A stretch of DNA of 64,000 nt, from the NCBI RefSeq assembly GCF_052324685.1, contig NW_027506876.1, positions 186,001 to 250,000 of the forward strand, given 5' to 3'. Both the position numbers and the translations under genes were made by a program. The DNA comes from Brachyhypopomus gauderio (taxonomy: Eukaryota > Chordata > Actinopteri > Gymnotiformes > Hypopomidae). Positions 1 through 64,000 of the stretch are shown in pieces. Each line of letters begins with the position of its first letter. Position 1 is the first letter of the stretch. The notes under the pieces were generated by a model. That model had not been told where the DNA came from and made no database searches. It worked only from the letters and a program-made list of their open reading frames with translations.

Positions 1-76
1 TGTTGACATGATGACTTTCATGCTCTGATTGTATGAGGAAACGCCCACGAGAGATGTGCCCATTCAGACAAGCAAG

Positions 77-149
77 GTTTATGTAGTGTAGTGGTCATCA
101 CGTTCGTCTAACACGCGAAAGGTCCCTGGTTCGACACCAGGCAGAAACA
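77..149 (+). tRNA. tRNA-Val(AAC), copy 1, acceptor mismatch
   Basis: Anticodon AAC at 110-112. Base 5 is A instead of C, so the fifth acceptor pair becomes A-G; pair 31-39 is U-G and T-loop base 59 is C. The same haplotype recurs at 1611 and 3657. B box GGTTCGACACC still fits. Function is doubtful but not excluded. Confidence 0.85.
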
Positions 150-588
150 TGCTTCTTGATAGAATTACAAACACACCACTGCTGTTTAGTGGTTTGTTGC
201 CAGTGTAAAGGCTATCGGGGAGCTCTTCCCTTTAGATCCTCAAAGTGAGCTCTCAGTCTCATGTGATCGATACAGGAATGTTCTAAATCGACATGTACCT
301 TGATAGCAGTACTAATGCAATCAGTTCAAACAAAATGAAACTCAGTGGAAACGTACGTAGTGCTTTGTCATGTTGTCTCCCAACGTAGAAAACTCATGCT
401 ACTCGGTTGATTTGTAGACGTTTGTGTTATAAAGGGATCGAATGATATCAACATTTGGTGTTTGGATGTGAATGTTTTGTCTTAAAGCAGAGTAGACCTA
501 CTGCTTAGCCATTGTTGACATGATGACTTTCATGCTCTGATTGTATGAGGAAACGCCCACGAGAGATGTGCCCATTCAGACAAGCAAG

Positions 589-659
589 GTTTATAGTGTA
601 GTGGTCATCACGTTCGTCTAACACGCGAAAGGTCCCTGGTTCGACACCAGGCAGAAACA
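589..659 (+). pseudogene. tRNA-Val(AAC) pseudogene, copy 2, 71 nt
   Basis: Starts GTTTATAGTG: two bases are missing between the acceptor strand and the A box relative to copy 1 (GTTTATGTAGTG). Only about four acceptor pairs (GTTT/AAAC) can form. Anticodon arm, T arm and both promoter boxes are otherwise as in copy 1, so it might be transcribed but should not mature. Confidence 0.85.
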
Positions 660-1098
660 TGCTTCTTGATAGAATTACAAACACACCACTGCTGTTTAGT
701 GGTTTGTTGCCAGTGTAAAGGCTATCGGGGAGCTCTTCCCTTTAGATCCTCAAAGTGAGCTCTCAGTCTCATGTGATCGATACAGGAATGTTCTAAATCG
801 CCATGTACCTTGATAGCAGTACTAATGCAATCAGTTCAAACAAAATGAAACTCAGTGGAAACGTACCTAGTGCTTTGTCATGTTGTCTCCCAACGTAGAA
901 AACTCATGCTCCTCGGTTGATTTGTAGACGTTTGTGTTATAAAGGGATCGAATGATGTCAACATTTGGTGTTTGGATGTGAATGTTTTGTCTTAAAGCAG
1001 AGTAGACCTACTGCTTAGCCATTGTTGACATGATGACTTCCATGCTCTGATTGTATGAGGAAACGCCCACAAGAGATGTGCCCATTCAGACAAGCAAG

Positions 1099-1171
1099 GT
1101 TTCTGTAGTGTAGTGGTCATCACGTTCGCCTTACACGCGAAAGGTCCCTGGTTCGATACCAGGCAGAAACA
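1099..1171 (+). tRNA. tRNA-Val(UAC), copy 3, anticodon-switched
   Basis: Identical in outline to the consensus AAC gene, but the anticodon at 1132-1134 reads TAC (A34 to T). All stems pair: GTTTCTG/CAGAAAC, TTCGC/GCGAA, CCTGG/CCAGG. U33 and the B box GGTTCGATACC are kept. It would read GUA, and GUG by wobble. Ordinary vertebrate tRNA-Val(UAC) genes have a different body, so this is a valine-to-valine anticodon switch arising inside the array. The downstream TTCTT is changed to TTCCT. Confidence 0.92.
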
Positions 1172-1610
1172 TGCTTCCTAATAGAATTACAAACACACCA
1201 CTGCTGTTTAGTGGTTTGTTGCCAGTGTAAAGGCTATCGGGGAGCTCTTCCCTTTAGATCCTCAAAGTGAGCTCTCAGTCTCATGTGATCGATACAGGAA
1301 TGTTCTAAATCGACATGTACCTTGATAGCAGTACTAATGCAATCAGTTCAAACAAAATGAAACTCAGTGGAAACGTACCTAGTGCTTTGTCATGTTGTCT
1401 CCCAACGTAGAAAACTCATGCTACTCGGTTGATTTGTAGACGTTTGTGTTATAAAGGGATCGAATGATATCAACATTTGGTGTTTGGATGTGAATGTTTT
1501 GTCTTAAAGCAGAGTAGACCTACTGCTTAGCCATTGTTGACATGATGACTTTCATGCTCTGATTGTATGAGGAAACGCCCACGAGAGATGTGCCCATTCA
1601 GACAAGCAAG

Positions 1611-1683
1611 GTTTATGTAGTGTAGTGGTCATCACGTTCGTCTAACACGCGAAAGGTCCCTGGTTCGACACCAGGCAGAAACA
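1611..1683 (+). tRNA. tRNA-Val(AAC), copy 4, acceptor mismatch
   Basis: Same haplotype as copy 1 (A5 facing G68, U31-G39, C59). Confidence 0.85.
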
Positions 1684-2122
1684 TGCTTCTTGATAGAATT
1701 ACAAACACACCACTGCTGTTTAGTGGTTTGTTGCCAGTGTAAAGGCTATCGGGGAGCTCTTCCCTTTAGATCCTCAAAGTGAGCTCTCAGTCTCATGTGA
1801 TCGATACAGGAATGTTCTAAATCGACATGTACCTTGATAGCAGTACTAATGCAATCAGTTCAAACAAAATGAAACTCAGTGGAAACGTACGTAGTGCTTT
1901 GTCATGTTGTCTCCCAACGTAGAAAACTCATGCTACTCGGTTGATTTGTAGACGTTTGTGTTATAAAGGGATCGAATGATATCAACATTTGGTGTTTGGA
2001 TGTGAATGTTTTGTCTTAAAGCAGAGTAGACCTACTGCTTAGCCATTGTTGACATGATGACTTTCATGCTCTGATTGTATGAGGAAACGCCCACGAGAGA
2101 TGTGCCCATTCAGACAAGCAAG

Positions 2123-2193
2123 GTTTATAGTGTAGTGGTCATCACGTTCGTCTAACACGCGAAAGGTCCCTGGTTCGACACCAGGCAGAAACA
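2123..2193 (+). pseudogene. tRNA-Val(AAC) pseudogene, copy 5, 71 nt
   Basis: Same two-base deletion as copy 2; acceptor stem cannot form fully. Confidence 0.85.
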
Positions 2194-2632
2194 TGCTTCT
2201 TGATAGAATTACAAACACACCACTGCTGTTTAGTGGTTTGTTGCCAGTGTAAAGGCTATCGGGGAGCTCTTCCCTTTAGATCCTCAAAGTGAGCTCTCAG
2301 TCTCATGTGATCGATACAGGAATGTTCTAAATCGCCATGTACCTTGATAGCAGTACTAATGCAATCAGTTCAAACAAAATGAAACTCAGTGGAAACGTAC
2401 CTAGTGCTTTGTCATGTTGTCTCCCAACGTAGAAAACTCATGCTCCTCGGTTGATTTGTAGACGTTTGTGTTATAAAGGGATCGAATGATGTCAACATTT
2501 GGTGTTTGGATGTGAATGTTTTGTCTTAAAGCAGAGTAGACCTACTGCTTAGCCATTGTTGACATGATGACTTCCATGCTCTGCTTGTATGAGGAAACGC
2601 CCACGAGAGATGTGCCCATTCAGACAGTCAAG

Positions 2633-2705
2633 GTTTCTGTAGTGTAGTGGTCATCACGTTCGCCTAACATGCGAAAGGTCCCTGGTTCGATACCAGGCAG
2701 AAACA
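2633..2705 (+). tRNA. tRNA-Val(AAC), copy 6 (T38 form)
   Basis: Anticodon loop CTAACAT (C38 to T); all stems intact. The leader reads CAGACAGTCAAG instead of CAGACAAGCAAG. A TTTT run lies about 43 bases past the gene end (AGTGTTTTGTTG), which most copies lack. Confidence 0.92.
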
Positions 2706-3144
2706 TGCTTCTTGATAGAATTACAAACGCACCACTGCTGTTTAGTGTTTTGTTGCCAGTGTAAAGGCTATCGGGGAGCTCTTCCCTTTAGATCCTCAAA
2801 GTGAGCTCTCAGTCTCATGTGATCGATACAGGAATGTTCTAAATCGCCATGTACCTTGATAGCAGTACTAATGCAATCGGTTCAATTAAAATGAAACTCA
2901 GTGAAAACGTACCTAGTGCTTTGTCATGTTGTCTCCCAACGTAGAAAACTCATGCTACTTGGTTGATTTGTAGACGTTTGTGTTATAAAGGGATCGAATG
3001 ATGTCAACATTTGGTGTTTGGATGTGAATGTTTTGTCTTAAAGCAGAGTAGACCTACTGCTTAGCCATTGTTGACATGATGACTTCCATGCTCTGATTGT
3101 ATGAGGAAACGCCCACAAGAGATGTGCCCATTCAGACAAGCAAG

Positions 3145-3217
3145 GTTTCTGTAGTGTAGTGGTCATCACGTTCGCCTTACACGCGAAAGGTCCCTGGTTC
3201 GATACCAGGCAGAAACA
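3145..3217 (+). tRNA. tRNA-Val(UAC), copy 7, anticodon-switched
   Basis: Second TAC-anticodon copy (3178-3180), same body as copy 3 and the same CACAAGAGATG leader, so the two derive from one A34-to-T event followed by duplication. Here the downstream TTCTT is kept. Confidence 0.92.
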
Positions 3218-3656
3218 TGCTTCTTAATAGAATTACAAACACACCACTGCTGTTTAGTGGTTTGTTGCCAGTGTAAAGGCTATCGGGGAGCTCTTCCCTT
3301 TAGATCCTCAAAGTGAGCTCTCAGTCTCATGTGATCGATACAGGAATGTTCTAAATCGACATGTACCTTGATAGCAGTACTAATGCAATCAGTTCAAACA
3401 AAATGAAACTCAGTGGAAACGTACCTAGTGCTTTGTCATGTTGTCTCCCAACGTAGAAAACTCATGCTACTCGGTTGATTTGTAGACGTTTGTGTTATAA
3501 AGGGATCGAATGATATCAACATTTGGTGTTTGGATGTGAATGTTTTGTCTTAAAGCAGAGTAGACCTACTGCTTAGCCATTGTTGACATGATGACTTTCA
3601 TGCTCTGATTGTATGAGGAAACGCCCACGAGAGATGTGCCCATTCAGACAAGCAAG

Positions 3657-3729
3657 GTTTATGTAGTGTAGTGGTCATCACGTTCGTCTAACACGCGAAA
3701 GGTCCCTGGTTCGACACCAGGCAGAAACA
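3657..3729 (+). tRNA. tRNA-Val(AAC), copy 8, acceptor mismatch
   Basis: Same haplotype as copies 1 and 4. Confidence 0.85.
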
Positions 3730-4168
3730 TGCTTCTTGATAGAATTACAAACACACCACTGCTGTTTAGTGGTTTGTTGCCAGTGTAAAGGCTATCGGGG
3801 AGCTCTTCCCTTTAGATCCTCAAAGTGAGCTCTCAGTCTCATGTGATCGATACAGGAATGTTCTAAATCGACATGTACCTTGATAGCAGTACTAATGCAA
3901 TCAGTTCAAACAAAATGAAACTCAGTGGAAACGTACGTAGTGCTTTGTCATGTTGTCTCCCAACGTAGAAAACTCATGCTACTCGGTTGATTTGTAGACG
4001 TTTGTGTTATAAAGGGATCGAATGATATCAACATTTGGTGTTTGGATGTGAATGTTTTGTCTTAAAGCAGAGTAGACCTACTGCTTAGCCATTGTTGACA
4101 TGATGACTTTCATGCTCTGATTGTATGAGGAAACGCCCACGAGAGATGTGCCCATTCAGACAAGCAAG

Positions 4169-4239
4169 GTTTATAGTGTAGTGGTCATCACGTTCGTCTA
4201 ACACGCGAAAGGTCCCTGGTTCGACACCAGGCAGAAACA
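4169..4239 (+). pseudogene. tRNA-Val(AAC) pseudogene, copy 9, 71 nt
   Basis: Same two-base deletion as copies 2 and 5. Followed by three S units. Confidence 0.85.
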
Positions 4240-4600
4240 TGCTTCTTGATAGAATTACAAACACACCACTGCTGTTTAGTGGTTTGTTGCCAGTGTAAAG
4301 GCTATCGGGGAGCTCTTCCCTTTAGATCCTCAAAGTGAGCTCTCAGTCTCATGTGATCGATACAGGAATGTTCTAAATCGCCATGTACCTTGATAGCAGT
4401 ACTAATGCAATCAGTTCAAACAAAATGAAACTCAGTGGAAACGTACCTAGTGCTTTGTCATGTTGTCTCCCAACGTAGAAAACTCATGCTCCTCGGTTGA
4501 TTTGTAGACGTTTGTGTTATAAAGGGATCGAATGATGTCAACATTTGGTGTTTGGATGTGAATGTTTTGTCTTAAAGCAGAGTAGACCTACTGCTTAGCC

Positions 4601-5194
4601 AGTGTTGATTGGTTCAATCAAAATGAAACTCAGTGGAAACGTACCTAGTGCTTTGTCATGTTGTCTCCCAACGTAGAAAACTCATGCTACTCGGTTGATT
4701 TGTAGACGTTTGTGTTATAAAGGGATCGAATGATGTCAACAGTTGGTGTTTGGATGTGAATGTTTTGTCTTAAAGCAGAGTAGACCTACTGCTTAGCAAG
4801 TGTTGATCGGTTCAATCCAAATGAAACTCAGTGGAAATGTACCTAGTGCTTTGTCATGTTGTCTCCCAACGTAGAAAACTCATGCTACTCGGTTGATTTG
4901 TAGACGTTTGTGTTATAAAGGGATCGAATGATGTCAACATTTGGTGTTTGGATGTGAATGTTTTGTCTTAAAGCAGAGTAGACCTACTGCTTAGCCAGTG
5001 TTGATCGGTTCAATCAAAATGAAACTCAGTGGAAACGTACCTAGTGCTTTGTCATGTTGTCTCCCAACGTAGAAAACTCATGCTACTCGGTTGATTTGTA
5101 GACGTTTGTGTTATAAAGGTATCGAATGAAGTCAACATTTGGTGTTTGGATGTGAATGTTTTGTCTTAAAGCAGAGTAGACCTACCGCTTAGCC
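4601..5194 (+). repeat. Run of three tRNA-less S units
   Basis: Three 198-bp units starting AGTGTTGAT at 4601, 4799 and 4997. Compared with L, the first eight bases (ATTGTTGA in L, AGTGTTGA here) are joined straight to the L sequence that starts TCGGTTCAATC, so 314 bp containing the leader, the tRNA and about 165 bp of 3' flank are missing. No promoter or gene remains in an S unit. Confidence 0.93.
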
Positions 5195-5272
5195 ATTGTT
5201 CACATGATGACTTCCATGCTCTGATTGTATGAGGAAACGCCCACGAGAGATGTGCCCATTCAGACAAGCAAG

Positions 5273-5784: not shown

Positions 5785-5857
5785 GTTTCTGTAGTGTAGT
5801 GGTCATCACGTTCGCCTAACACGCGAAAGGTCCCTGGTTCGATACCAGGCAGAAACA
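5785..5857 (+). tRNA. tRNA-Val(AAC), copy 11, reference for the consensus form
   Basis: A 73-base cytosolic valine tRNA gene (discriminator A, CCA not encoded), recognised by its close match to vertebrate tRNA-Val(AAC). Acceptor GTTTCTG pairs with CAGAAAC (7 bp), D stem G10-T11-G12 with C23-A24-C25, anticodon stem TTCGC with GCGAA around loop CTAACAC, T stem CCTGG with CCAGG around TTCGATA. The anticodon AAC (34-36) would become IAC and read GUU, GUC and GUA. Internal Pol III promoter: A box TAGTGTAGTGG at bases 8-18 and a perfect B box GGTTCGATACC at 52-62. Upstream ACAAGCAAG gives CAA-type initiation sites. Just 3' is TTCTT at 5861-5865, with no TTTT close by. 31 copies match this form. Confidence 0.97.
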
Positions 5858-5860
5858 TGC

Positions 5861-8454: not shown

Positions 8455-9142
8455 TCAATCAATCAATCAAATTTTATTTATATAGCGCTTTTTACAACAG
8501 TTGTTGTCACAAAGCAGCTTTACAAGTGCCGAGTCCAAGCCCCCAGTGAGCAAGCCAAGGGCGACAGTGGCAAGGAAAAACTCCCTAGTTTTTTGCATGA
8601 GGAAGAAACCTTGAGAGGAACCAAGACTCAGGGGGGGAACCCATCCTCCTCTGGCCGACACCGGTCACCATGACAACAACAACAACAATTTAGACAGAAA
8701 GAAGAGAAAGAAAATGAAAAATATGTAATAATGTCCATCATGATGTATGCATCCGGTTAGGCAGGAGGTGGCTGGCTCAGGATGGATCGCTGGTCTCCTC
8801 ATCTCATTATTCCTCAAACAGGCGGGCAGCCATGTGGAGAAATGAAACAGGGAAAATTAGCTCTGTATGAGGACATATACAGGACAGGTAAAATTATAAA
8901 CATTTCCGGAGTGTGGCAGCAACTCCGGCATTTAGTTAAATTATTACAGCCTAGCTAAAAAGGCAGAACCAGAAGGTAACATAGGCTTGGGGGCATTCTG
9001 AGACAATGGCATCCGTCCACTGCACTGTCAACAAACTTGAGTGACCACGAGCAGTGACAGGACGACAGCACCAGCGCCCCAGTCTACCATAAAACCCTTT
9101 GTCTATGAACCCCTGGATCTGTACTTTTATCTAAGGGGGATA
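8455..9142 (-). other. LINE 3' untranslated region and tail
   Basis: 688 bp downstream of the reverse-transcriptase stop, ending in TTGA repeats (8455-8470 on the + strand reads TCAATCAATCAATC). It contains a short CAA-type run near 8671-8688. The last ~100 bases (AGCGCTATATAAATAAAATT on the - strand) are the part likely recognised by the reverse transcriptase. No coding potential beyond a meaningless short frame. Confidence 0.75.
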
Positions 9143-11164
9143 TTAATTATCAAACGCTAAACTAAATAAGTGGGTTTTCAACCTAGACTTAAAGATTGTG
9201 ACTGTGTCGGAGTCCCGGACACATTTAGGAAGATTATTCCAAAGCTGGGGGGCCTTACAAGAAAAGGCTCTTCCCCCTGCTGTTACCTTATTAATTTTTG
9301 GAACTAATAAAAGACCAGCACCCTGTGATCTTAGTGGGCGTGGGGGTTCGTAATAGGAAATAAGTTCCTGAAGGTACTCAGGAGCAAGCCCGTGCAATGC
9401 TTTATAAGTTAATAAAAGAATTTTAAAGTCAATACGGAATTTAACTGGGAGCCAATGCAGGGCTGATAGGACTGGACTGATATGCTGAAATTTTCTAGTT
9501 CTGGTCAGAACCCTGGCTGCGGCATTTTGAACTATTTGAAGTTTATTTAGATTCCTATTTGAACATCCTGACAGTAGTGCATTGCAGTAGTCTAATCTAG
9601 AGCTAACAAAGGCGTGCACCAATTTTTCCGCATCATCCTGTGATAATGCATTTCTTAATTTAGCAATGTTACGGAGATGTAGAAAAGCTATCCTAGTAGT
9701 ATTATCTATGTATTTATCAAATGATAGATCAGAGTCGAGTATGACGCCTAGGTTTTTGGCTACTGTGCCAGGTGTAATGGGGTAGCCTGCGAGATTAAGC
9801 ATTAGATCTGGAATTTTCTGTTTTGAGGCCTTAGGGCCCAGAAGAAGAACTTCTGTTTTGTCCTCATTAAGTTGGAGGAAGTTTAGAGACATCCAGCATT
9901 TAATATCTTTTACACAGGCCTCAATTTTTCTTAAAATGAGTTTGTCATCAGGTTTGGCTGATATGTAAAGTTGAGTGTCATCTGCATAGCAGTGAAAATT
10001 GACACCATGTTTGTTTATAACTGTGCCCAATGGTAGCATATATAGTGTAAATAATAGTGGTCCTAGAATGGAGCCTTGCGGGATCCCATATTTAACTTTT
10101 GTACGTTTGGATGGAATATTATTGAGCTCTACAAACTGATAGCGATTTGTTAAGTAAGAATGAAACCATGAAAGGGCTGTGCCAGAGACTCCAACCCAGC
10201 GTTCTAACCTTTCTAGCAAGATCCTATGATCAATTGTGTCGAAAGCTGCACTAAGATCAAGAAGCACTAACAGCGATACATAACCTTGATCTGAAGCAAG
10301 GAGGAGGTCATTTGTTACTTTAACTAATGCTGTTTCAGTACTGTGATGGGGCCTAAAACCAGATTGGAACTTTTCAAATATGTGATGCCTATGCAGATAT
10401 AGGCATAATTGCTGGGCAACAGCTTTTTCTATGATCTTAGATATAAATGATGTGTTTGAAATGGGTCTATAATTAGATAGTACAGTAGGATCAAGATTTG
10501 GTTTCTTAATCAGAGGTTTAATAACTGCTAATTTACATGATTTGGGCATGTGACCTATTGTAATGGATGAGTTAACTATAGTTAGAAGAGGTTCAGTTAC
10601 CGCTGGTAATACCTCTTTTAATAACTTTGATGGAACAGAGTCTAGTGTGCAGGTAGCACAATTTAAGGAAGAAATTATTTTCTCTAATTCTGATTGTGGG
10701 AGTGGATGAAAAGCATCAAGTTTTTCTCCCAGTATGCGATTTAAATCGATGTCAACCAAACCAGATGACATACCAGTTGTATTGCTAATAAAAGGTTTTA
10801 TATTTTGTCTAATATTCTCTATTTTATTATCAAAAAAATCTATAAATACATTACTAGTGAGGTTTACTGGAATCTGAGGTTCTGCGCCTGCTTGATTTTT
10901 TGTAAGTTTGGAAATAGTATTAAAAAGAAATCTAGGATTGTTTTTATTTTTCTCTATCAGTGAGGCTAGGTATGCTGAGCGTGCTTTAGCGAGTGCCCGT
11001 TTGTAGTCAATGATGCTATCCTTCCAGGCACAGTAGAATACTTCCAACTTAGTAGATCGCCATTTACGCTCTAATTTACGTGCTATTTGTTTTAAGTTTC
11101 TAGTTTGGTCAGTGTACCACGGAGCGAGTTTTTTAGATCTAGTCTTTTTATATTTGAGTGGAGC
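9143..11164 (-). CDS. LINE ORF2 fragment: reverse transcriptase (5' partial)
   Basis: A 673-codon open frame with no start of its own: it is open right up to the truncation point, and the nearby TTG at 11047 is not a credible start. The N-terminal part ([20 protein letters not shown]) is the linker that follows the endonuclease in L2-type ORF2. The reverse-transcriptase domain follows: [39 protein letters not shown] (first catalytic Asp), [13 protein letters not shown], and [12 protein letters not shown] with the catalytic YADD at 9977-9988. Beyond this come thumb and C-terminal motifs including [22 protein letters not shown] and [24 protein letters not shown], ending AFDN. In an intact element it would copy its own RNA at a nicked target; here, without endonuclease or promoter, it cannot move itself. 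No internal break was seen. Confidence 0.92.
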
Positions 11165-11165
11165 T

Positions 11166-11170
11166 ACCTA
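11166..11170 (+). repeat. LINE target-site duplication, right copy
   Basis: ACCTA resuming the array tail motif (CTACTGCTTAGCC) after the truncated 5' end of the LINE. Confidence 0.85.
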
Positions 11171-11331: not shown

Positions 11332-11770
11332 TGCTTCTTGATAGAATTACAAACACACCACTGCTGTTTAGTGGTTTGTTGCCAGTGTAAAGGCTATCGG
11401 GGAGCTCTTCCCTTTAGATCCTCAAAGTGAGCTCTCAGTCTCATGTGATCGATACAGGAATGTTCTAAATCGCCATGTACCTTCATAGCAGTACTAATGC
11501 AATCAGTTCAAACTAAATGAAACTCAGTGGAAACGTACGTAGTGCTTTGTCATGTTGTCTCCCAACGTAGAAAACTCATGCTACTCGGTTGATTTGTAGA
11601 CGTTTGTGTTATAAAGGGATCGAATGATGTCAACATTTGGTGTTTGGATGTGAATGTTTTGTCTTAAAGCAGAGTAGACCTACTGCTTAGCCATTGTTGA
11701 CATGATGACTTCCATGCTCTGATTGTATGAGGAAACGCCCACGAGAGATGTGCCCATTCAGACAAGCAAG

Positions 11771-11843
11771 GTTTCTGTAGTGTAGTGGTCATCAAGTTCG
11801 CCTAACACGCGAAAGGTCCCTGGTTCGATACCAGGCAGAAACA
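11771..11843 (+). tRNA. tRNA-Val(AAC), copy 17, D-stem mismatch
   Basis: C25 is A (ATCAAGTTCG), losing the G10-C25 pair as in copy 15; otherwise consensus. Its 3' flank has AAGCTTC and AGAAGTAC. Confidence 0.88.
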
Positions 11844-12678
11844 AGCTTCTTGATAGAAGTACAAACACACCACTGCTGTTTAGTGGTTTGTTGCCAGTGT
11901 AAAGGCTATCGGGGAGCTCTTCCCTTTAGATCCTCAAAGTGAGCTCTCAGTCTCATGTGATCGATACAGGAATGTTCTAAATCGCCATGTACCTTGATAG
12001 CAGTACTAATGCAATCAGTTCAAACAAAATGAAACTCAGTGGAAACGTACCTAGTGCTTTGTCATGTTGTCTCCCAACGTAGAAAACTCATGCTACTCGG
12101 TTGATTTGTAGACGTTTGTGTTATAAAGGGATCGAATGATGTCAACATTTGGTGTTTGGATGTGAATGTTTTGTCTTAAAGCAGAGTAGACCTACTGCTT
12201 AGCCAGTGTTGATCGGTTCAATCAAAATGAAACTCAGTGGAAACGTACCTAGTGCTTTGTCATGTTGTCGCCCAACGTAGAAAACTCATGCTACTTGGTT
12301 GATTTGTAGACGTTTGTGTTATAAAGGTATCGAATGAAGTCAACATTTGGTGTTTGGATGTGAATGTTTTGTCTTAAAGCAGAGTAGACCTACTGCTTAG
12401 CAAGTGTTGATCGGTTCAATCAAAATGAAACTCAGTGGAAATGTACCTAGTGCTTTGTCATGTTGTCTCCAAACGTAGAAAACTCATGCTACTCGGTTGA
12501 TTTGTAGACGTTTGTGTTATAAAGGTATCGAATGAAGTCAACATTTGGTGTTTGGATGTGAATGTTTTGTCTTAAAGCAGAGTAGACCTACCGCTTAGCC
12601 ATTGTTGACATGATGACTTCCATGCTCTGATTGTATGAGGAAACGCCAACGAGAGATGTGCCCATTCAGACAAGCAAG

Positions 12679-12751
12679 GTTTCTGTAGTGTAGTGGTCAT
12701 CACGTTTGCCTAACATGCGAAAGGTCCCTGGTTCAATACCAGGCAGAAACA
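12679..12751 (+). tRNA. tRNA-Val(AAC), copy 18, altered B box
   Basis: T loop TTCAATA (G57 to A, B box GGTTCAATACC), C29 to T wobble, C38 to T. Ancestor-like member of the damaged series at 14099, 15519, 16939 and 21284, because its T stem is still paired. Confidence 0.88.
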
Positions 12752-13190
12752 TGCTTCTTGATAGAATTACAAACACACCACTGCTGTTTAGTGGTTTGTT
12801 GCCAGTGTAAAGGCTATCAGGGAGCTCTTCCCTTTAGATCCTCAAAGTGAGCTGTCAGTCTCATGTGATCGATACAGGAATGTTTTAAATCGCCATGTAC
12901 CTTGATAGCAGTACTAATGCAGCCGGTTCAATCAAAATGAAACTCAGTGGAAACGTACGTAGTGCTTTGTCATGTTGTCTCCCAACGTAGAAAACTCATG
13001 CTACTCGGTTGATTTGTAGACGTTTGTGTTATAAAGGGATCGAATGATGTCAACATTTGGTGTTTGGATGTGAATGTTTTGTCTTAAAGCAGAGTAGACC
13101 TACTGCTTAGCCATTGTTGACATGATGACTTCCATGCTCTGATTGTATGAGGAAACGCCCACGAGAGATGTGCCCATTCAGACAAGCAAG

Positions 13191-13263
13191 GTTTCTGTAG
13201 TGTAGTGGTCATCACGTTCGCCTAACACGCGAAAGGTCCCTGGTTCGATACCAGGCAGAAACA
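13191..13263 (+). tRNA. tRNA-Val(AAC), copy 19, consensus form
   Basis: Gene as copy 11. The 3' flank has AAGCTTC, AGAAGTAC and a TTTT about 43 bases past the gene (AGTGTTTTGTTG). Confidence 0.95.
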
Positions 13264-14098
13264 AGCTTCTTGATAGAAGTACAAACACACCACTGCTGTT
13301 TAGTGTTTTGTTGCCAGTGTAAAGGCTATCGGGGAGCTCTTCCCTTTAGATCCTCAAAGTGAGCTCTCAGTCTCATGTGATCGATACAGGAATGTTCTAA
13401 ATCGCCATGTACCTTGATAGCAGTACTAATGCAATCAGTTCAAACAAAATGAAACTCAGTGGAAACGTACCTAGTGCTTTGTCATGTTGTCTCCCAACGT
13501 AGAAAACTCATGCTACTCGGTTGATTTGTAGACGTTTGTGTTATAAAGGGATCGAATGATGTCAACATTTGGTGTTTGGATGTGAATGTTTTGTCTTAAA
13601 GCAGAGTAGACCTACTGCTTAGCCAGTGTTGATCGGTTCAATCAAAATGAAACTCAGTGGAAACGTACCTAGTGCTTTGTCATGTTGTCTCCCAACGTAG
13701 AAAACTCATGCTACTTGGTTGATTTGTAGACGTTTGTGTTATAAAGGTATCGAATGAAGTCAACATTTGGTGTTTGGATGTGAATGTTTTGTCTTAAAGC
13801 AGAGTAGACCTACTGCTTAGCAAGTGTTGATCGGTTCAATCAAAATGAAACTCAGTGGAAATGTACCTAGTGCTTTGTCATGTTGTCTCCAAACGTAGAA
13901 AACTCATGCTACTCGGTTGATTTGTAGACGTTTGTGTTATAAAGGTATCGAATGAAGTCAACATTTGGTGTTTGGATGTGAATGTTTTGTCTTAAAGCAG
14001 AGTAGACCTACCGCTTAGCCATTGTTGACATGATGACTTCCATGCTCTGATTGTATGAGGAAACGCCCACGAGAGATGTGCCCATTCAGACAAGCAAG

Positions 14099-14171
14099 GT
14101 TTCTGTAGTGTAGTGGTCATCACGTTTGCCTAACATGCGAAAGGTCACTGGTTCAATACCAGGCAGAAACA
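14099..14171 (+). tRNA. tRNA-Val(AAC), copy 20, T-arm damaged
   Basis: As copy 18 plus C49 to A (GGTCACTGG), so the first T-stem pair with G65 is lost. Combined with G57A, U29 and U38 this copy is a probable pseudogene, yet the form has been amplified four times. Confidence 0.85.
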
Positions 14172-14610
14172 TGCTTCTTGATAGAATTACAAACACACCA
14201 CTGCTGTTTAGTGGTTTGTTGCCAGTGTAAAGGCTATCAGGGAGCTCTTCCCTTTAGATCCTCAAAGTGAGCTGTCAGTCTCATGTGATCGATACAGTTA
14301 TGTTTTAAATCGCCATGTACCTTGATAGCAGTACTAATGCAGCCGGTTCAATCAAAATGAAACTCAGTGGAAACGTACGTAGTGCTTTGTCATGTTGTCT
14401 CCCAACGTAGAAAACTCATGCTACTCGGTTGATTTGTAGACGTTTGTGTTATAAAGGGATCGAATGATGTCAACATTTGGTGTTTGGATGTGAATGTTTT
14501 GTCTTAAAGCAGAGTAGACCTACTGCTTAGCCATTGTTGACATGATGACTTCCATGCTCTGATTGTATGAGGAAACGCCCACGAGAGATGTGCCCATTCA
14601 GACAAGCAAG

Positions 14611-14683
14611 GTTTCTGTAGTGTAGTGGTCATCACGTTCGCCTAACACGCGAAAGGTCCCTGGTTCGATACCAGGCAGAAACA
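14611..14683 (+). tRNA. tRNA-Val(AAC), copy 21, consensus form
   Basis: Gene as copy 11; flank as copy 19 with the TTTT run. Confidence 0.95.
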
Positions 14684-15518
14684 AGCTTCTTGATAGAAGT
14701 ACAAACACACCACTGCTGTTTAGTGTTTTGTTGCCAGTGTAAAGGCTATCGGGGAGCTCTTCCCTTTAGATCCTCAAAGTGAGCTCTCAGTCTCATGTGA
14801 TCGATACAGGAATGTTCTAAATCGCCATGTACCTTGATAGCAGTACTAATGCAATCAGTTCAAACAAAATGAAACTCAGTGGAAACGTACCTAGTGCTTT
14901 GTCATGTTGTCTCCCAACGTAGAAAACTCATGCCACTTGGTTGATTTGTAGACGTTTGTGTTATAAAGGGATCGAATGATGTCAACATTTGGTGTTTGGA
15001 TGTGAATGTTTTGTCTTAAAGCAGAGTAGACCTACTGCTTAGCCAGTGTTGATCGGTTCAATCAAAATGAAACTCAGTGGAAACGTACCTAGTGCTTTGT
15101 CATGTTGTCTCCCAACGTAGAAAACTCATGCTACTTGGTTGATTTGTAGACGTTTGTGTTATAAAGGTATCGAATGAAGTCAACATTTGGTGTTTGGATG
15201 TGAATGTTTTGTCTTAAAGCAGAGTAGACCTACTGCTTAGCAAGTGTTGATCGGTTCAATCAAAATGAAACTCAGTGGAAATGTACCTAGTGCTTTGTCA
15301 TGTTGTCTCCAAACGTAGAAAACTCATGCTACTCGGTTGATTTGTAGACGTTTGTGTTATAAAGGTATCGAATGAAGTCAACATTTGGTGTTTGGATGTG
15401 AATGTTTTGTCTTAAAGCAGAGTAGACCTACCGCTTAGCCATTGTTGACATGATGACTTCCATGCTCTGATTGTATGAGGAAACGCCCACGAGAGATGTG
15501 CCCATTCAGACAAGCAAG

Positions 15519-15591
15519 GTTTCTGTAGTGTAGTGGTCATCACGTTTGCCTAACATGCGAAAGGTCACTGGTTCAATACCAGGCAGAAACA
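15519..15591 (+). tRNA. tRNA-Val(AAC), copy 22, T-arm damaged
   Basis: Same changes as copy 20. Confidence 0.85.
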
Positions 15592-16030
15592 TGCTTCTTG
15601 ATAGAATTACAAACACACCACTGCTGTTTAGTGGTTTGTTGCCAGTGTAAAGGCTATCAGGGAGCTCTTCCCTTTAGATCCTCAAAGTGAGCTGTCAGTC
15701 TCATGTGATCGATACAGTTATGTTTTAAATCGCCATGTACCTTGATAGCAGTACTAATGCAGCCGGTTCAATCAAAATGAAACTCAGTGGAAACGTACGT
15801 AGTGCTTTGTCATGTTGTCTCCCAACGTAGAAAACTCATGCTACTCGGTTGATTTGTAGACGTTTGTGTTATAAAGGGATCGAATGATGTCAACATTTGG
15901 TGTTTGGATGTGAATGTTTTGTCTTAAAGCAGAGTAGACCTACTGCTTAGCCATTGTTGACATGATGACTTCCATGCTCTGATTGTATGAGGAAACGCCC
16001 ACGAGAGATGTGCCCATTCAGACAAGCAAG

Positions 16031-16103
16031 GTTTCTGTAGTGTAGTGGTCATCACGTTCGCCTAACACGCGAAAGGTCCCTGGTTCGATACCAGGCAGAA
16101 ACA
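16031..16103 (+). tRNA. tRNA-Val(AAC), copy 23, consensus form
   Basis: Gene as copy 11; flank as copy 19. Confidence 0.95.
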
Positions 16104-16938
16104 AGCTTCTTGATAGAAGTACAAACACACCACTGCTGTTTAGTGTTTTGTTGCCAGTGTAAAGGCTATCGGGGAGCTCTTCCCTTTAGATCCTCAAAGT
16201 GAGCTCTCAGTCTCATGTGATCGATACAGGAATGTTCTAAATCGCCATGTACCTTGATAGCAGTACTAATGCAATCAGTTCAAACAAAATGAAACTCAGT
16301 GGAAACGTACCTAGTGCTTTGTCATGTTGTCTCCCAACGTAGAAAACTCATGCTACTCGGTTGATTTGTAGACGTTTGTGTTATAAAGGGATCGAATGAT
16401 GTCAACATTTGGTGTTTGGATGTGAATGTTTTGTCTTAAAGCAGAGTAGACCTACTGCTTAGCCAGTGTTGATCGGTTCAATCAAAATGAAACTCAGTGG
16501 AAACGTACCTAGTGCTTTGTCATGTTGTCTCCCAACGTAGAAAACTCATGCTACTTGGTTGATTTGTAGACGTTTGTGTTATAAAGGTATCGAATGAAGT
16601 CAACATTTGGTGTTTGGATGTGAATGTTTTGTCTTAAAGCAGAGTAGACCTACTGCTTAGCAAGTGTTGATCGGTTCAATCAAAATGAAACTCAGTGGAA
16701 ATGTACCTAGTGCTTTGTCATGTTGTCTCCAAACGTAGAAAACTCATGCTACTCGGTTGATTTGTAGACGTTTGTGTTATAAAGGTATCGAATGAAGTCA
16801 ACATTTGGTGTTTGGATGTGAATGTTTTGTCTTAAAGCAGAGTAGACCTACCGCTTAGCCATTGTTGACATGATGACTTCCATGCTCTGATTGTATGAGG
16901 AAACGCCCACGAGAGATGTGCCCATTCAGACAAGCAAG

Positions 16939-17011
16939 GTTTCTGTAGTGTAGTGGTCATCACGTTTGCCTAACATGCGAAAGGTCACTGGTTCAATACC
17001 AGGCAGAAACA
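16939..17011 (+). tRNA. tRNA-Val(AAC), copy 24, T-arm damaged
   Basis: Same changes as copy 20. Confidence 0.85.
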
Positions 17012-17450
17012 TGCTTCTTGATAGAATTACAAACACACCACTGCTGTTTAGTGGTTTGTTGCCAGTGTAAAGGCTATCAGGGAGCTCTTCCCTTTAGATC
17101 CTCAAAGTGAGCTGTCAGTCTCATGTGATCGATACAGTTATGTTTTAAATCGCCATGTACCTTGATAGCAGTACTAATGCAGCCGGTTCAATCAAAATGA
17201 AACTCAGTGGAAACGTACGTAGTGCTTTGTCATGTTGTCTCCCAACGTAGAAAACTCATGCTACTCGGTTGATTTGTAGACGTTTGTGTTATAAAGGGAT
17301 CGAATGATGTCAACATTTGGTGTTTGGATGTGAATGTTTTGTCTTAAAGCAGAGTAGACCTACTGCTTAGCCATTGTTGACATGATGACTTCCATGCTCT
17401 GATTGTATGAGGAAACGCCCACGAGAGATGTGCCCATTCAGACAAGCAAG

Positions 17451-17523
17451 GTTTCTGTAGTGTAGTGGTCATCACGTTCGCCTAACACGCGAAAGGTCCC
17501 TGGTTCGATACCAGGCAGAAACA
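17451..17523 (+). tRNA. tRNA-Val(AAC), copy 25, consensus form
   Basis: Gene as copy 11; flank as copy 19. The piggyBac-type element lies 336 bases downstream in the same L unit. Confidence 0.95.
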
Positions 17524-17855
17524 AGCTTCTTGATAGAAGTACAAACACACCACTGCTGTTTAGTGTTTTGTTGCCAGTGTAAAGGCTATCGGGGAGCTCT
17601 TCCCTTTAGATCCTCAAAGTGAGCTCTCAGTCTCATGTGATCGATACAGGAATGTTCTAAATCGCCATGTACCTTGATAGCAGTACTAATGCAATCAGTT
17701 CAAACAAAATGAAACTCAGTGGCAACGTACCTAGTGCTTTGTCATGTTGTCTCCCAACGTAGAAAACTCATGCTACTCGGTTGATTTGTAGACGTTTGTG
17801 TTATAAAGGGATCGAATGATGTCAACATTTGGTGTTTGGATGTGAATGTTTTGTC

Positions 17856-18473: not shown

Positions 18474-18475
<2 letters not shown>

Positions 18476-46727: not shown

Positions 46728-46800
46728 GTTTCTGTAGTGTAGTGGTCATCACGTTCGCCTAACATGCGAAAGGTCCCTGGTTCGATACCAGGCAGAAACA
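46728..46800 (+). tRNA. tRNA-Val(AAC), copy 61 (T38 form)
   Basis: TATGACG leader; stems intact. Confidence 0.94.
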
Positions 46801-47635
46801 TGCTTCTTGATAGAATTACAAACACACCACTGCTGTTTAGTGGTTTGTTGCCAGTGTAAAGGCTATCAGGGAGCTCTTCCCTTTAGATCCTCAAAGTGAG
46901 CTGTCAGTCTCATGTGATCGATACAGGAATGTTTTAAATTGCCATGTACCTTGATAGCAGTACTAATGCAGCCGGTTCAATCAAAATGAAACTCAGTGGA
47001 AACGTACCTAGTGCTTTGTCATGTTGTCTCCCAACGTAGAAAATTCATGCCACTTGGTTGATTTGTAGACGTTTGTGTTATAAAGGGATCGAATGATGTC
47101 AACATTTGGTGTTTGGATGTGAATGTTTTGTCTTAAAGCAGAGTAGACCTACTGCTTAGCCAGTGTTGATCGGTTCAATCAAAATGAAACTCAGTGGAAA
47201 CGTACCTAGTGCTTTGTCATGTTGTCTCCCAACGTAGAAAACTCATGCTACTTGGTTGATTTGTAGACGTTTGTGTTATAAAGGTATCGAATGAAGTCAA
47301 CATTTGGTGTTTGGATGTGAATGTTTTGTCTTAAAGCAGAGTAGACCTACTGCTTAGCAAGTGTTGATCGGTTCAATCAAAATGAAACTCAGTGCAAATG
47401 TACCTAGTGCTTTGTCATGTTGTCTCCAAACGTAGAAAACTCATGCTACTCGGTTGATTTGTAGACGTTTGTGTTATAAAGGTATCGAATGAAGTCAACA
47501 TTTGGTGTTTGGATGTGAATGTTTTGTCTTAAAGCAGAGTAGACCTACCGCTTAGCCATTGTTGACATGATGACTTCCATGCTCTGATTGTATGAGGAAA
47601 CGCCCACGAGAGATGTGCCCATTCAGACAAGCAAG

Positions 47636-47708
47636 GTTTCTGTAGTGTAGTGGTCATCACATTCGCCTAACACGCGAAAGGTCCCTGGTTCGATACCAGG
47701 CAGAAACA
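47636..47708 (+). tRNA. tRNA-Val(AAC), copy 62 (A26 form)
   Basis: Last A26 copy; preceded by the CAGTGCAAATG S unit but with the ordinary AGTGGTTTGTTG flank, so the markers of copies 39, 44 and 52 are split here. Confidence 0.95.
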
Positions 47709-48147
47709 TGCTTCTTGATAGAATTACAAACACACCACTGCTGTTTAGTGGTTTGTTGCCAGTGTAAAGGCTATCGGGGAGCTCTTCCCTTTAGATCCTC
47801 AAAGTGAGCTCTCAGTCTCATGTGATCGATACAAGAATGTTCTAAATCGCCATGTACCTTGATAGCAGTACTAATGCAATCGGTTCAATCAAAATGAAAC
47901 TCAGTGGAAACGTACCTAGTGCTTTGTCATGTTGTCTCCCAACGTAGAAAACTCATGCTACTCGGTTGATTTGTAGACGTTTGTGTTATAAAGGTATCGA
48001 ATGAAGTCAACATTTGGTGTTTGGATGTGAATGTTTTGTCTTAAAGCAGAGTAGACCTACCGCTTAGCCATTGTTGACATGATGACTTCCATGCTCTGAT
48101 TGTATGAGGAAACGCCCACGAGAGATGTGCCCATTCAGACCAGCAAG

Positions 48148-48220
48148 GTTTCTGTAGTGTAGTGGTCATCACGTTCGCCTAACACGCGAAAGGTCCCTGG
48201 TTCGATACCAGGCAGAAACA
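48148..48220 (+). tRNA. tRNA-Val(AAC), copy 63, consensus form
   Basis: Gene as copy 11; CAGACCAGC leader; followed by five S units. Confidence 0.95.
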
Positions 48221-48581
48221 TGCTTCTTGATAGAATTACAAACACACCACTGCTGTTTAGTGGTTTGTTGCCAGTGTAAAGGCTATCGGGGAGCTCTTCC
48301 CTTTAGATCCTCAAAGTGAGCTCTCAGTCTCATGTGATCGATACAGGAATGTTCTAAATCGCCATGTACCTTGATAGCAGTACTAATGCAATCAGTTCAA
48401 ACAAAATGAAACTCAGTGGAAACGTACCTAGTGCTTTGTCATGTTGTCTCCCAACGTAGAAAACTCATGCTACTCGGTTGATTTGTAGACGTTTGTGTTA
48501 TAAAGGGATCGAATGATGTCAACATTTGGTGTTTGGATGTGAATGTTTTGTCTTAAAGCAGAGTAGACCTACTGCTTAGCC

Positions 48582-61553: not shown

Positions 61554-61626
61554 GTTTCTGTAGTGTAGTGGTCATCACGTTCGCCTAACACGCGAAAGGT
61601 CCCTGGTTCGATACCAGGCAGAAACA
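61554..61626 (+). tRNA. tRNA-Val(AAC), copy 83, consensus form
   Basis: Gene as copy 11; CAGTCCCATG flank. Confidence 0.95.
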
Positions 61627-62065
61627 TGCTTCTTGATAGAATTACAAACACACCACTGCTGTTTAGTGGTTTGTTGCCAGTGTAAAGGCTATCGGGGAGC
61701 TCTTCCCTTTAGATCCTCAAAGTGAGCTCTCAGTCCCATGTGATCGATACAAGAATGTTCTAAATCGCCATGTACCTTGATAGCAGTACTAATGCAATCG
61801 GTTCAATCAAAATGAAACTCAGTGGAAACGTACCTAGTGCTTTGTCATGTTGTCTCCCAACGTAGAAAACTCATGCTACTCGGTTGATTTGTAGACGTTT
61901 GTGTTATAAAGGGATCGAATGATGTCAACATTTGGTGTTTGGATGTGAATGTTTTGTCTTAAAGCAGAGTAGACCTACTGCTTAGCCATTGTTGACATGA
62001 TGACTTCCATGCTCTGATTGTATGAGGAAACGCCCACGAGAGATGTGCCCATTCAGACAAGCAAG

Positions 62066-62138
62066 GTTTCTGTAGTGTAGTGGTCATTACGTTCGCCGAA
62101 CACGCGAAAGTTCCCTGGTTCGATACCAGGCAGAAACA
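62066..62138 (+). tRNA. tRNA-Val(AAC), copy 84, U33G with C23T and G46T
   Basis: Same gene as copy 75. Confidence 0.86.
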
Positions 62139-62973
62139 TGCTTCTTGATAGAATTACAAACACACCACTGATGTTTAGTGGTTTGTTGCCAGTGTAAAGG
62201 CTATCAGGGAGCTCTTCCCTTTAGATCCTCAAAGTGAGCTCTCAGTCTCATGTGATCGATACAGGAATGTTCTAAATCGCCATGTACCTTGATAGCAGTA
62301 CTAATGCAATCGGTTCAATCAAAATGAAACTCAGTGGAAACGTACCTAGTGCTTTGTCATGTTGTCTCCCAACGTAGAAAACTCATGCTACTCAGTTGAT
62401 TTGTAGACGTTTGTGTTATAAAGGGATCGAATGATGTCAACATTTGGTGTTTGGATGTGAATGTTTTGTCTTAAAGCAGAGTAGACCTACTGCTTAGCAA
62501 GTGTTGATCGGTTCAATCCAAATGAAACTCAGTGGAAATGTACCTAGTGCTTTGTCATGTTGTCTCCCAACGTAGAAAACTCATGCTACTCGGTTGATTT
62601 GTAGACGTTTGTGTTATAAAGGGATCGAATGATGTCAACATTTGGTGTTTGGATGTGAATGTTTTGTCTTAAAGCAGAGTAGACCTACTGCTTAGCCAGT
62701 GTTGATCGGTTCAATCAAAATGAAACTCAGTGGAAACGTACCTAGTGCTTTGTCATGTTGTCTCCCAACGTAGAAAACTCATGCTACTCGGTTGATTTGT
62801 AGACGTTTGTGTTATAAAGGTATCGAATGAAGTCAACATTTGGTGTTTGGATGTGAATGTTTTGTCTTAAAGCAGAGTAGACCTACCGCTTAGCCATTGT
62901 TCACATGATGACTTCCATGCTCTGATTGTATGAGGAAACGCCCACGAGAGATGTGCCCATTCAGACAAGCAAG

Positions 62974-63046
62974 GTTTCTGTAGTGTAGTGGTCATCACGT
63001 TCGCCTAACATGCGAAAGGTCCCTGGTTCGATACCAGGCAGAAACA
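62974..63046 (+). tRNA. tRNA-Val(AAC), copy 85 (T38 form)
   Basis: Partner of copy 10 in the distant duplicate block (TTGTTCACATG leader). Confidence 0.94.
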
Positions 63047-63485
63047 TGCTTCTTGATAGAATTACAAACACACCACTGCTGTTTAGTGGTTTGTTGCCAG
63101 TGTAAAGGCTATCGGGGAGCTCTTCCCTTTAGATCCTCAAAGTGAGCTCTCAGTCTCATGTGATCGATACAAGAATGTTCTAAATCGCCATGTACCTTGA
63201 TAGCAGTACTAATGCAATCGGTTCAATCAAAATGAAACTCAGTGGAAACGTACCTAGTGCTTTGTCATGTTGTCTCCCAACGTAGAAAACTCATGCTACT
63301 CGGTTGATTTGTAGACGTTTGTGTTATAAAGGGATCGAATGATGTCAACATTTGGTGTTTGGATGTGAATGTTTTGTCTTAAAGCAGAGTAGACCTACCG
63401 CTTAGCCATTGTTGACATGATGACTTCCATGCTCTGATTGTATGAGGAAACGCCCACGAGAGATGTACCCATTCAGACAAGCAAG

Positions 63486-63558
63486 GTTTCTGTAGTGTAG
63501 TGGTCATCACGTTCGCCTAACACGCGAAAGGTCCCTGGTTCGATACCAGGCAGAAACA
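63486..63558 (+). tRNA. tRNA-Val(AAC), copy 86, consensus form
   Basis: Partner of copy 11 in the distant duplicate block (GATGTACCC leader). Confidence 0.95.
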
Positions 63559-63997
63559 TGCTTCTTGATAGAATTACAAACACACCACTGCTGTTTAGTG
63601 GTTTGTTGCCAGTGTAAAGGCTATCAGGGAGCTCTTCCCTTTAGATCCTCAAAGTGAGCTGTCAGTCTCATGTGATCGATACAGGAATGTTTTAAATCGC
63701 CATGTACCTTGATAGCAGTACTAATGCATCCGGTTCAATCAAAATGAAACTCAGTGGAAACGTACGTAGTGCTTTGTCATGTTGTCTCCCAACGTAGAAA
63801 ACTCATGCTACTTGGTTGATTTGTAGACGTTTGTGTTATAAAGGGATCGAATGATGTCAACATTTGGTGTTTGGATGTGAATGTTTTGTCTTAAAGCAGA
63901 GTAGACCTACTGCTTAGCCATTGTTGACATGATGACTTCCATGCTCTGATTGTATGAGGAAACGCCCACGAGAGATGTGCCCATTCAGACAAGCAAG

Positions 63998-64000
63998 GTT
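63998..64000 (+). tRNA. First three bases of the next tRNA-Val copy (cut by window edge)
   Basis: The usual leader CAGACAAGCAAG is followed by GTT at the edge, exactly 512 bases after copy 86. The array therefore continues to the right. Confidence 0.8.

Follow-up and report, generated by a model that had tools for sequence, protein, structure and literature searches.

Whether the giant tRNA arrays of fish supply the egg or are silent repeats has been left open by the zebrafish papers, and the same question is raised by a long run of tRNA-Val genes on contig C32, of which we analysed a 64,000-bp stretch (the window). A preliminary description of this run presented it as a satellite of exact unit lengths, kept alike by very active homogenisation. 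At issue are therefore both the way in which the copies come to resemble one another and the likelihood that the genes in them work.

Composition and extent of the array

ARAGORN predicts 86 tRNA-Val genes in the window, all on the forward strand, in agreement with the number and orientation first reported. The anticodon is AAC in 83 of them, TAC in two and GAC in one, and 80 of the 86 exceed the Rfam tRNA gathering score. The summed distance of 63,921 bp from the first to the 87th tRNA is likewise correct, the 87th contributing its first three bases at 63998, at the window end. Where it was read or sampled (264 kb read plus 14 more samples from C32:1 to 526.5 kb, all array-positive), the satellite runs from the start of the contig, which already lies inside the array, to a sharp right edge at about 526.8 kb. 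There is a second array on contig C96. A tRNA-derived SINE would be expected as dispersed single copies with a tail and target duplications, and the copies that were read are in tandem on both contigs. The genome contains 891 occurrences of a signature 35-mer, 494 of these being reverse matches, and this count suggests roughly 1,300-2,200 copies genome-wide.

Within the window the claim of exact unit lengths holds: 158 spacer anchors delimit 157 intervals, all of which are accounted for by 512 bp (n = 79), 198 bp (n = 72), 510 bp (n = 4) and two insert-bearing intervals. It does not carry over to the wider region C32:106001-370000, where the tRNA-to-tRNA intervals include 58 of 510 bp and add lengths of 511 bp (8) and 509 bp (6). 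The four 2-bp deletions first counted are present; they lie in the tRNA acceptor stem and not in the spacer; the four tRNAs that bear them are identical, and so look like a single event by descent.

Small indels are still rare in the wider region, as had been stated for the window, even though exact lengths are not kept array-wide. Four distinct deletions were found in the tRNA module, compared with 201 + 112 distinct substitution alleles, and none was seen in the spacer module among the 523 of 525 modules used, which are fixed 198-bp pieces cut around a core. Substitution alleles outnumber small deletions by 101 to one in the window and by 313 to 4 in the 264 kb. Many indels fall in simple repeats, and the array unit has none, so we build nothing on the scarcity as a possible anomaly. 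For comparison, a report on the human germline gives 17,812 SNVs and 1,282 indels, about 14 to 1 (PMC5147774). Nor do few indels in the array point to homogenisation, since homogenisation would reduce substitutions and indels alike.

The array can be described by two modules, a 314-bp tRNA block (T) and a 198-bp spacer (X), with one to six X after each T; the runs of X in the window have lengths of 1 (44), 2 (18), 3 (20), 4 (3) and 6 (1). Spacers differ by their place in the run. Column 192 of X is T in all 86 X that precede a tRNA module and G in all 72 that precede another X, and the X type is 'TAC' in 41 of 42 last positions and 'GTT' in 42 of 42 first positions. A genome-wide search for the X-X junction gave 137 exact matches, every one of them forward and none reverse, and among the matches listed all are on C32; the X-X repeat has a single shared junction and probably arose once, in this array. 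The 198-bp unit (S) was considered as a deletion derivative of the 512-bp unit (L) and this was not retained, the same junction being expected from tandem duplication of the 198-bp spacer. Because the two origins are indistinguishable, we describe the array by T and X.

Table 1. Features of the window, with positions counted from its first base.
Feature	Position	Strand	Basis or remark
tRNA-Val satellite slice	1..64000 (C32:186001-250000)	+	86 tRNAs, unit decomposition; array overruns both window ends
Higher-order repeat of about 1,534 bp (l L L), single spacer modules	1..4239	+	unit string, offset scan
tRNA copy with 2-bp acceptor-stem deletion	589..659	+	one of four (589, 2123, 4169, 49650), the 510-bp units
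Example run of four 198-bp X between two tRNA modules	4410..5200	+	tandem repeat rows
Consensus tRNA-Val(AAC), example	5785..5857	+	identical in 31/86 copies; Rfam 64.9 bits
LINE-type retrotransposon, apparently 5' truncated, 2,716 bp	8455..11170	-	PF00078, E 3e-35
Higher-order repeat L L s s, 1,420 bp	11700..22633	+	
DNA transposon-like insert, 2,925 bp	17860..20784	.	TTAA flanks, terminal inverted repeat CACTAGAAGTCCC
Domain with higher-order repeat near 2,130 bp (L L s L s s and variants)	22237..48400 (approximate limits)	+	

Higher-order repeats and block duplication

Units are arranged in local higher-order repeats (Table 1). In the 1,420-bp repeat, a 6,588-bp block matches itself at a shift of 1,420 bp with 0.23% divergence (second insert excluded), and the domain with the repeat near 2,130 bp contains long block duplications, for example one of 4,772 bp at an offset of 17,436 bp with 0.13% divergence, although matches were picked at four or fewer mismatches per module, which biases divergence downward. 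The best lag was below 0.8 of lag 1 in 28 of the 32 local windows, which overlap (median ratio 0.59; 31.7% of copy pairs were excluded for frame shift), meaning that adjacent units there are less similar than copies several units apart. In simulations with two replicates for each model and arbitrarily chosen parameters, the best-lag ratio was 0.72 and 0.69 under block duplication, against 1.0 under unit conversion and 0.94 under global conversion, with 0 of 31 windows. Interior copies differ on average by 1.6-3.6%, both within and between domains, and the difference rises with distance.

The array in the window also carries the two inserts of Table 1. The LINE has an open reverse transcriptase frame (9146-11167, 674 aa), and the same insertion is found again, split, at C32:278248-304265, with 1 mismatch in 2,719 aligned bases; the two copies are about 84 kb apart and share the target and the truncation. 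The right flank shows 8 mismatches in 4,000 at the second copy, against 24 at the next best place. The 1-kb left flank is matched equally well by a LINE-free place (C32:274268), and being unspecific it leaves the second copy to be singled out by the right flank only. In six reading frames tested, the other insert showed no transposase domain, and no Pfam match reached an E value below 0.05; by its ends alone it appears piggyBac-like, and at best it would be a copy that is non-autonomous or decayed.

Judged from the order and divergence of the units, duplication and deletion of multi-unit blocks appears to fit the pattern better than unit-by-unit levelling. The array probably grows and shrinks through blocks of several units that are exchanged homologously and in register or are duplicated; the blocks involved may be of the size of the matches, which reach 6.6 kb in the window, with one displaced by about 84 kb. 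Such exchange, presumably unequal between sister chromatids or replication-based, would generate local higher-order repeats and spread variants, the LINE insert included. The very active homogenisation originally proposed is accordingly not the best description of an array in which nearest neighbours are less alike and spacers retain positional identities. Its unit-wise form, in which gene conversion or exchange of single units maintains homogeneity, could explain the contrast between an interior with only about 2-4% difference among copies and an edge unit that has diverged by about 18-36% outside its tRNA, but we find it very doubtful: in those 28 windows the units most alike are not adjacent ones, positional alleles persist in the spacer modules, and neither unit-wise nor global conversion reproduced the pattern in simulation.

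It is also fairly unlikely that unequal exchange should be replaced by rolling-circle copying of extrachromosomal circles that reinsert into the array. Reinsertion of a concatemer is expected to leave runs such as the near-identical consecutive 1,420-bp L L s s blocks, yet the LINE, together with about 5 kb of its right flank, was copied over a distance of about 84 kb, which in-place exchange fits equally, and divergence that increases with distance is equally compatible with in-place exchange. Least probable of all is that the order and number of units are artefacts of assembly. Tandem arrays are difficult to assemble, and C32 starts within one; however, the longest exact repeat in the window is below 3 kb, the 79 L units comprise 44 distinct sequences that can act as anchors, and the transposon inserts, the sharp right edge and the domain-specific anticodons are consistently placed.

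Variation among the tRNA copies

In the consensus tRNA none of the 20 stem pairs is lost, and motifs that we take to be the A and B boxes are present. Across 398 copies, however, 46 of 73 tRNA columns are variable versus 109 of 231 in the flanks, which makes the tRNA no less variable than the sequence around it, and purifying selection at the level of the copy was not detected. Of 34 positions that vary in at least two copies, 21 lie within stems, where 18.6 are expected. U33 is missing from 53 copies and a stem pair is broken in 140, and broken types have themselves been amplified, to 19, 16 and 14 copies, so that the tRNA seems unprotected copy by copy. Our intactness tests were passed by 218 copies and failed by the other 180. 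Intact copies are the majority among those that start in the window (61 of 87), at 304-370 kb (87 of 117) and at 165-186 kb (24 of 37), and the minority at 106-165 kb (32 of 110) and at 250-278 kb (14 of 47). Both of the most frequent tRNA types, with 104 and 33 copies, are intact. Variation is somewhat depleted in the A box (2 of 12 positions, 5.6 expected, p 0.02, post hoc; in the window 0 of 11, p 0.05).

Canonical Pol III terminators (T4 or longer) are not characteristic of the array: TTTT lies within 60 nt downstream of 13 of the 398 copies, whereas in the dispersed tRNA-Val genes, five of five, it follows within 19 nt. The TTTT that transcription of an array unit would reach lies at 132 or 326 nt. 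The diverged terminal unit of the array retains without change the 11 nt directly 3' of the tRNA, including CTTCTT, so a non-canonical terminator is possible. Columns that are CpG by consensus are variable in 18 of 34 cases, compared with 58 of 478 others (p 6e-8); the wider count, 40 of 43 versus 115 of 261 (p 3e-10), is inflated, since three copies suffice there to make a CpG column. This hypervariability suggests, indirectly, germline methylation. Among non-CpG changes, G>T and C>A are in excess (20 of 73).

Some leads were dropped. A 44-bp stretch of X is invariant in the window, where its max-run P is 0.014 for the unit ring (CpG stratified) and 0.002 for X alone, but it was rejected as a protected element when 14 of its 44 columns proved variable in the wider region, versus 64 of 146 elsewhere (523 of 525 spacer modules, p 0.17); its variants there are all rare. 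The motif TATAAAG is present in 156 of 157 units, and an RNA family search gave no support for the unit that bears it. An exact scan of viral contigs with a piece of the tRNA returned no match.

Origin of the tRNA lineage

Standard tRNA-Val genes are dispersed elsewhere in the genome, and the array consensus differs from a dispersed AAC gene by three compensatory stem pairs (P 0.002). At the right edge, the single terminal unit (C32:526827) has tRNA-module flanks that are 27-36% diverged, yet its tRNA is changed at 4 of 73 positions, versus 70 of 236 in the module flanks (p 7e-6) and 34 of 185 in X (p 0.01). The founder was thus a genuine tRNA gene under selection, and its lineage was once constrained.

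Discussion

The view that the array behaves as a satellite is borne out by its higher-order repeats, its block duplications, its decayed terminal unit and the lack of visible selection on the tRNA copy by copy. We consider it likely that this is a mostly silent satellite, with a once-functional tRNA-Val in its monomer and higher-order repeats formed by block exchange. Expression of most copies is probably absent or poor, in view of the CpG hypervariability and the near-total lack of a canonical terminator.

A tRNA-bearing satellite with higher-order repeats is a kind already known, and a search of open-licence papers found none on this particular array. The maize tRNASAT_ZM is likewise reported as a tandem satellite named after a tRNA, with a 91.95-kb array on chr4L (PMC10335936); it belongs to a plant and is likened to our array by description, not by sequence. 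The human tRNA VNTR at 1q23.3 is described as a tRNA-bearing macrosatellite of unstable copy number with units 98% alike, but with a GC-rich, CTCF-binding unit of 7.3 kb, five tRNA genes on both strands and 9-43 copies (PMC4041453). Entamoeba also has tandem tRNA gene arrays, which differ in being reported to have 25 unit types, up to five tRNA genes in each and short tandem repeats between them (PMC2652664). Among teleosts, clusters of fifty or more tRNA genes are on record (PMC2888827), arrays of tRNAs in tandem are reported close to the end of catfish chromosome 14, in a genome of about 0.8 Gb (PMC10071708), and the clusters of zebrafish chromosome 4 are described as very large parallel arrays (PMC11574265, PMC11417395, PMC11075544). 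Zebrafish neighbours are mostly of different isotypes according to one account (PMC2888827), whereas 396 of 397 isotype predictions in the array studied here are Val.

Could the array instead be a working, developmentally restricted supply of tRNA-Val for the oocyte or the mother's contribution to the egg? Copy number would then provide egg dosage, and with many copies broken ones would be tolerated; a maternal-supply hypothesis has been proposed for zebrafish chromosome 4 (PMC11075544), and zebrafish egg tRNAs are reported as encoded in repetitive regions (PMC11417395). The intact stem pairs and A and B boxes of the consensus, the long structural selection on the lineage, the 218 intact copies with both commonest types among them, and the CTTCTT kept in the edge unit would all agree with such a role. 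Against it stand a tRNA as variable as its flanks or more, amplified types with U33 loss and stem breaks, the absence of a nearby TTTT from 385 of 398 copies, and the CpG hypervariability. The zebrafish clusters, moreover, are reported to be heavily CpG-methylated, near-fully so in embryos, with most predicted tRNA genes seemingly inactive there (PMC11574265). We regard a maternal supply as rather unlikely, and give slightly less credence still to a germline tRNA-Val source that does without canonical terminators, yielding a distinct maternal isodecoder under selection at the level of the array rather than the copy. Such a source would require Pol III to read through each gene or to stop at the weak CTTCTT run, and its dosage would be set through satellite-style block copying.

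With one isotype extending over about half a megabase, the forces acting on a satellite-borne tRNA gene can be read directly: constraint is seen before amplification, in the edge unit and in the compensatory pairs relative to dispersed genes, and none is visible afterwards. Counts of predicted tRNA genes are misleading in such genomes. The array's markers, C20, U51-A63, U59 and the absent TTTT, are ones by which RNA sequencing could separate an egg supply from silent repeats.

Extent and composition of the tRNA-Val array

The preliminary description had reported 86 tRNA copies on a single strand of the window, with spacings made up of exact unit lengths, and both points are borne out. ARAGORN predicts 86 tRNA-Val genes, all on the plus strand, of which 80 reach the Rfam tRNA cut-off. 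A spacer anchor occurs 158 times, and the resulting 157 intervals comprise 79 of 512 bp, 72 of 198 bp, 4 of 510 bp and 2 longer ones with inserts; the earlier sum of unit lengths is correct. No exact repeat of 3 kb or more was found in the window.

The window is a slice, C32:186001-250000, of a larger array on contig C32. From a genome of 796.5 Mb in 840 contigs, probably that of a teleost to judge by its size, its tRNA and its kinds of repeat, we read C32:106001-370000 (264 kb) and shorter stretches elsewhere. The 264 kb yielded 397 tRNA predictions, 396 of them Val (anticodons AAC 300, CAC 81, TAC 10 and GAC 5), and a scan with the consensus tRNA recovered 398 copies with a single 26.5-kb interruption. 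Two further odd tRNA-to-tRNA intervals, of 2,639 and 1,525 bp, lie within C32:106-165 kb and 304-370 kb. All 14 samples taken from C32 outside the 264 kb, between position 1 and 526.5 kb, carry the array; it is missing from those at 538.0-539.5 and 550-553 kb, and it ends at about 526,827. A second array, on contig C96, runs on the opposite strand. A 35-mer from the array tRNA has 397 + 494 exact matches genome-wide. Exact matches to it make up 158 of the 398 copies within the 264 kb and apparently a larger share, about two thirds, over the opening 50 kb of C32 (at least 65 matches), so by extrapolation the genome may hold some 1,300-2,200 copies.

Anticodons fall into domains, with C32:1-165000 mostly CAC/TAC and the window and the region to its right AAC. 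Among the 398 copies, position 34 varies in 96, position 36 in one and position 35 in none. The minus-strand array on C96 has TAC and CAC copies, one of which carries T20, the canonical D-loop base.

Organization of the modules

Removal of the 314-bp tRNA-holding block (module T) from the 512-bp unit leaves the 198-bp unit (module X). With inserts excluded, the X modules between successive T modules of the window occur singly in 44 cases, in twos in 18, in threes in 20, in fours in 3 and as six in 1. These X modules can be told apart by position: at column 192 the base is T in each of the 86 that precede a T module and G in each of the 72 that precede another X. The first X of a run is of the 'GTT' type in 42 of 42 cases and the last of the 'TAC' type in 41 of 42. 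The exact X-X junction has 137 matches genome-wide, forward every time; among the matches listed, all lie on C32, starting at 142.4 kb. Since no exact junction accompanies the 494 matches of the tRNA 35-mer on the reverse strand, the junction probably had a single origin and remained local. Separately, 156 of 157 window units carry TTATAAAG within the spacer module, about 29 bp upstream of a 44-bp stretch; the part of this region that was tested has no RNA family match.

Matching blocks and a LINE insertion present twice

A 6,588-bp block of the window differs from itself at a 1,420-bp shift by 0.23%, and blocks of 3-5 kb lying 13-20 kb apart differ by 0.1-0.4% (more than 4 mismatches in a module marking a block end). 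Over the 398 copies, with 31.7% of pairs excluded for frame shifts, mean divergence increases with distance, from about 2.1% for copies two apart to 4.0% for those separated by 301-397; adjacent copies are 2.5% divergent, versus 2.1-2.3% at two to twelve copies apart. Of 32 overlapping local windows, 28 had a best lag below 0.8 of lag 1, and the median ratio was 0.59. A simple simulation with arbitrary parameters and two replicates per model gave medians of 0.72 and 0.69 for block duplication plus deletion (21 of 35 and 25 of 31 windows), 1.0 for unit-wise conversion (0 of 31) and 0.94 for global conversion (0 of 31).

The LINE insert of the window occurs a second time on C32, with identical target and truncation and 1 mismatch in 2,719 aligned bases, and the two copies have about 1.6 kb of left and 5.4 kb of right flank in common. 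The right flank picks out this second place (8 mismatches in 4,000, versus 24 at the next best); for the 1-kb left flank, a site without the LINE at C32:274268 is an equally good match. The common target, truncation and flanks indicate a single insertion event, duplicated along with its surroundings at a distance of about 84 kb.

Inserts in the tRNA-Val array
Feature	Position	Context	Features noted
Second LINE copy	C32:278248-304265		interrupted by a 23.3-kb nested insert
Nested insert	C32:279087-302385	inside second LINE copy	~1.9-kb internal repeats, TTA both sides
TTAA-flanked insert	window 17860-20784		90-nt internal inverted repeat 18628-18717/18845-18934; no recognisable transposase

Tests for constraint on the tRNA, past and present

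The last array unit differs strongly from the consensus (27-36% in the flanks within the tRNA module, 18% in X), as would be expected at an array end, out of reach of exchange. Its tRNA has changed at 4 of 73 positions (G7C, C25T, C36A and C56T) versus 70 of 236 in the module flanks (p 7e-6). Relative to the dispersed tRNA-Val(AAC) gene, the array consensus carries 7 stem changes, including 3 that are fully compensated, at 4-69, 6-67 and 51-63 (P 0.002). Judged from these sequences, conservation in the terminal unit and the compensated stem changes argue that the lineage captured by the array is a real tRNA. Also at the array edge, at C32:526171-526329, a tRNA module is broken within the tRNA and fused directly to a spacer-module end.

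We see no sign that a working tRNA is maintained copy by copy. Among the 79 full-length 512-bp units of the window, 15 of 73 tRNA columns are variable versus 61 of 439 others (p 0.15). Across the window, variants within the tRNA are no less frequent than those of the flanks by minor counts (p 0.38); singletons are fewer in the tRNA than in the flanks (p 0.03). Over the 398 copies, with 10 edge columns omitted from the flanks, the tRNA is the more variable (46 of 73 versus 109 of 231, p 0.02; non-CpG columns 33 of 59 versus 82 of 202, p 0.05), and 21 of the 34 tRNA positions variable in at least two copies lie in stems, with 18.6 expected. There are 79 distinct tRNA sequences. Tests of stem pairs, U33 and invariant tRNA bases are passed by 218 of 398 copies; U33 is absent in 53 and a pair is broken in 140. 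Broken types reach 19, 16 and 14 copies, and the two commonest types (104 and 33) are intact. No compensatory change was found among the 17 tRNA haplotypes of the window. Against an absence of copy-level constraint counts the A box, where 2 of 12 positions are variable and 5.6 expected (398 copies; p 0.02, post hoc).

Terminators, methylation and possible expression

A 35-mer that we take to be canonical for tRNA-Val has 6 exact genome matches, one of which is an array copy on C96. The other five are dispersed standard tRNA-Val genes, a count that covers exact matches, so genes differing from the 35-mer escape it. TTTT follows the tRNA by 1-19 nt in all five, and lies within 60 nt downstream in 13 of 398 array copies, the others having it mostly at 132 or 323-326 nt; T runs are described in excerpts of PMC8531034 as needed for Pol III termination.

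In the window, consensus CpG columns are variable in 18 of 34 cases versus 58 of 478 other columns (p 6e-8), and this hypervariability suggests germline methylation of the array. Among non-CpG changes in window units, G>T or C>A make up 20 of 73, a share that seems large for mutations in the germline. In early zebrafish embryos, large tRNA clusters are near-fully methylated and most predicted genes inactive, according to excerpts of PMC11574265. The array may nevertheless supply tRNA to the egg: excerpts of PMC11417395 report that egg tRNAs are encoded in repetitive regions, and a CTTCTT 3' of the tRNA is unchanged in the diverged edge unit.

In the literature searched, we found no earlier description of this Val-only array, its higher-order repeats or its absent terminators. 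As far as excerpts show, tRNA satellites are already known from maize (PMC10335936) and large tRNA clusters from teleosts (PMC2888827), and the present array is a large, clean new example among them.
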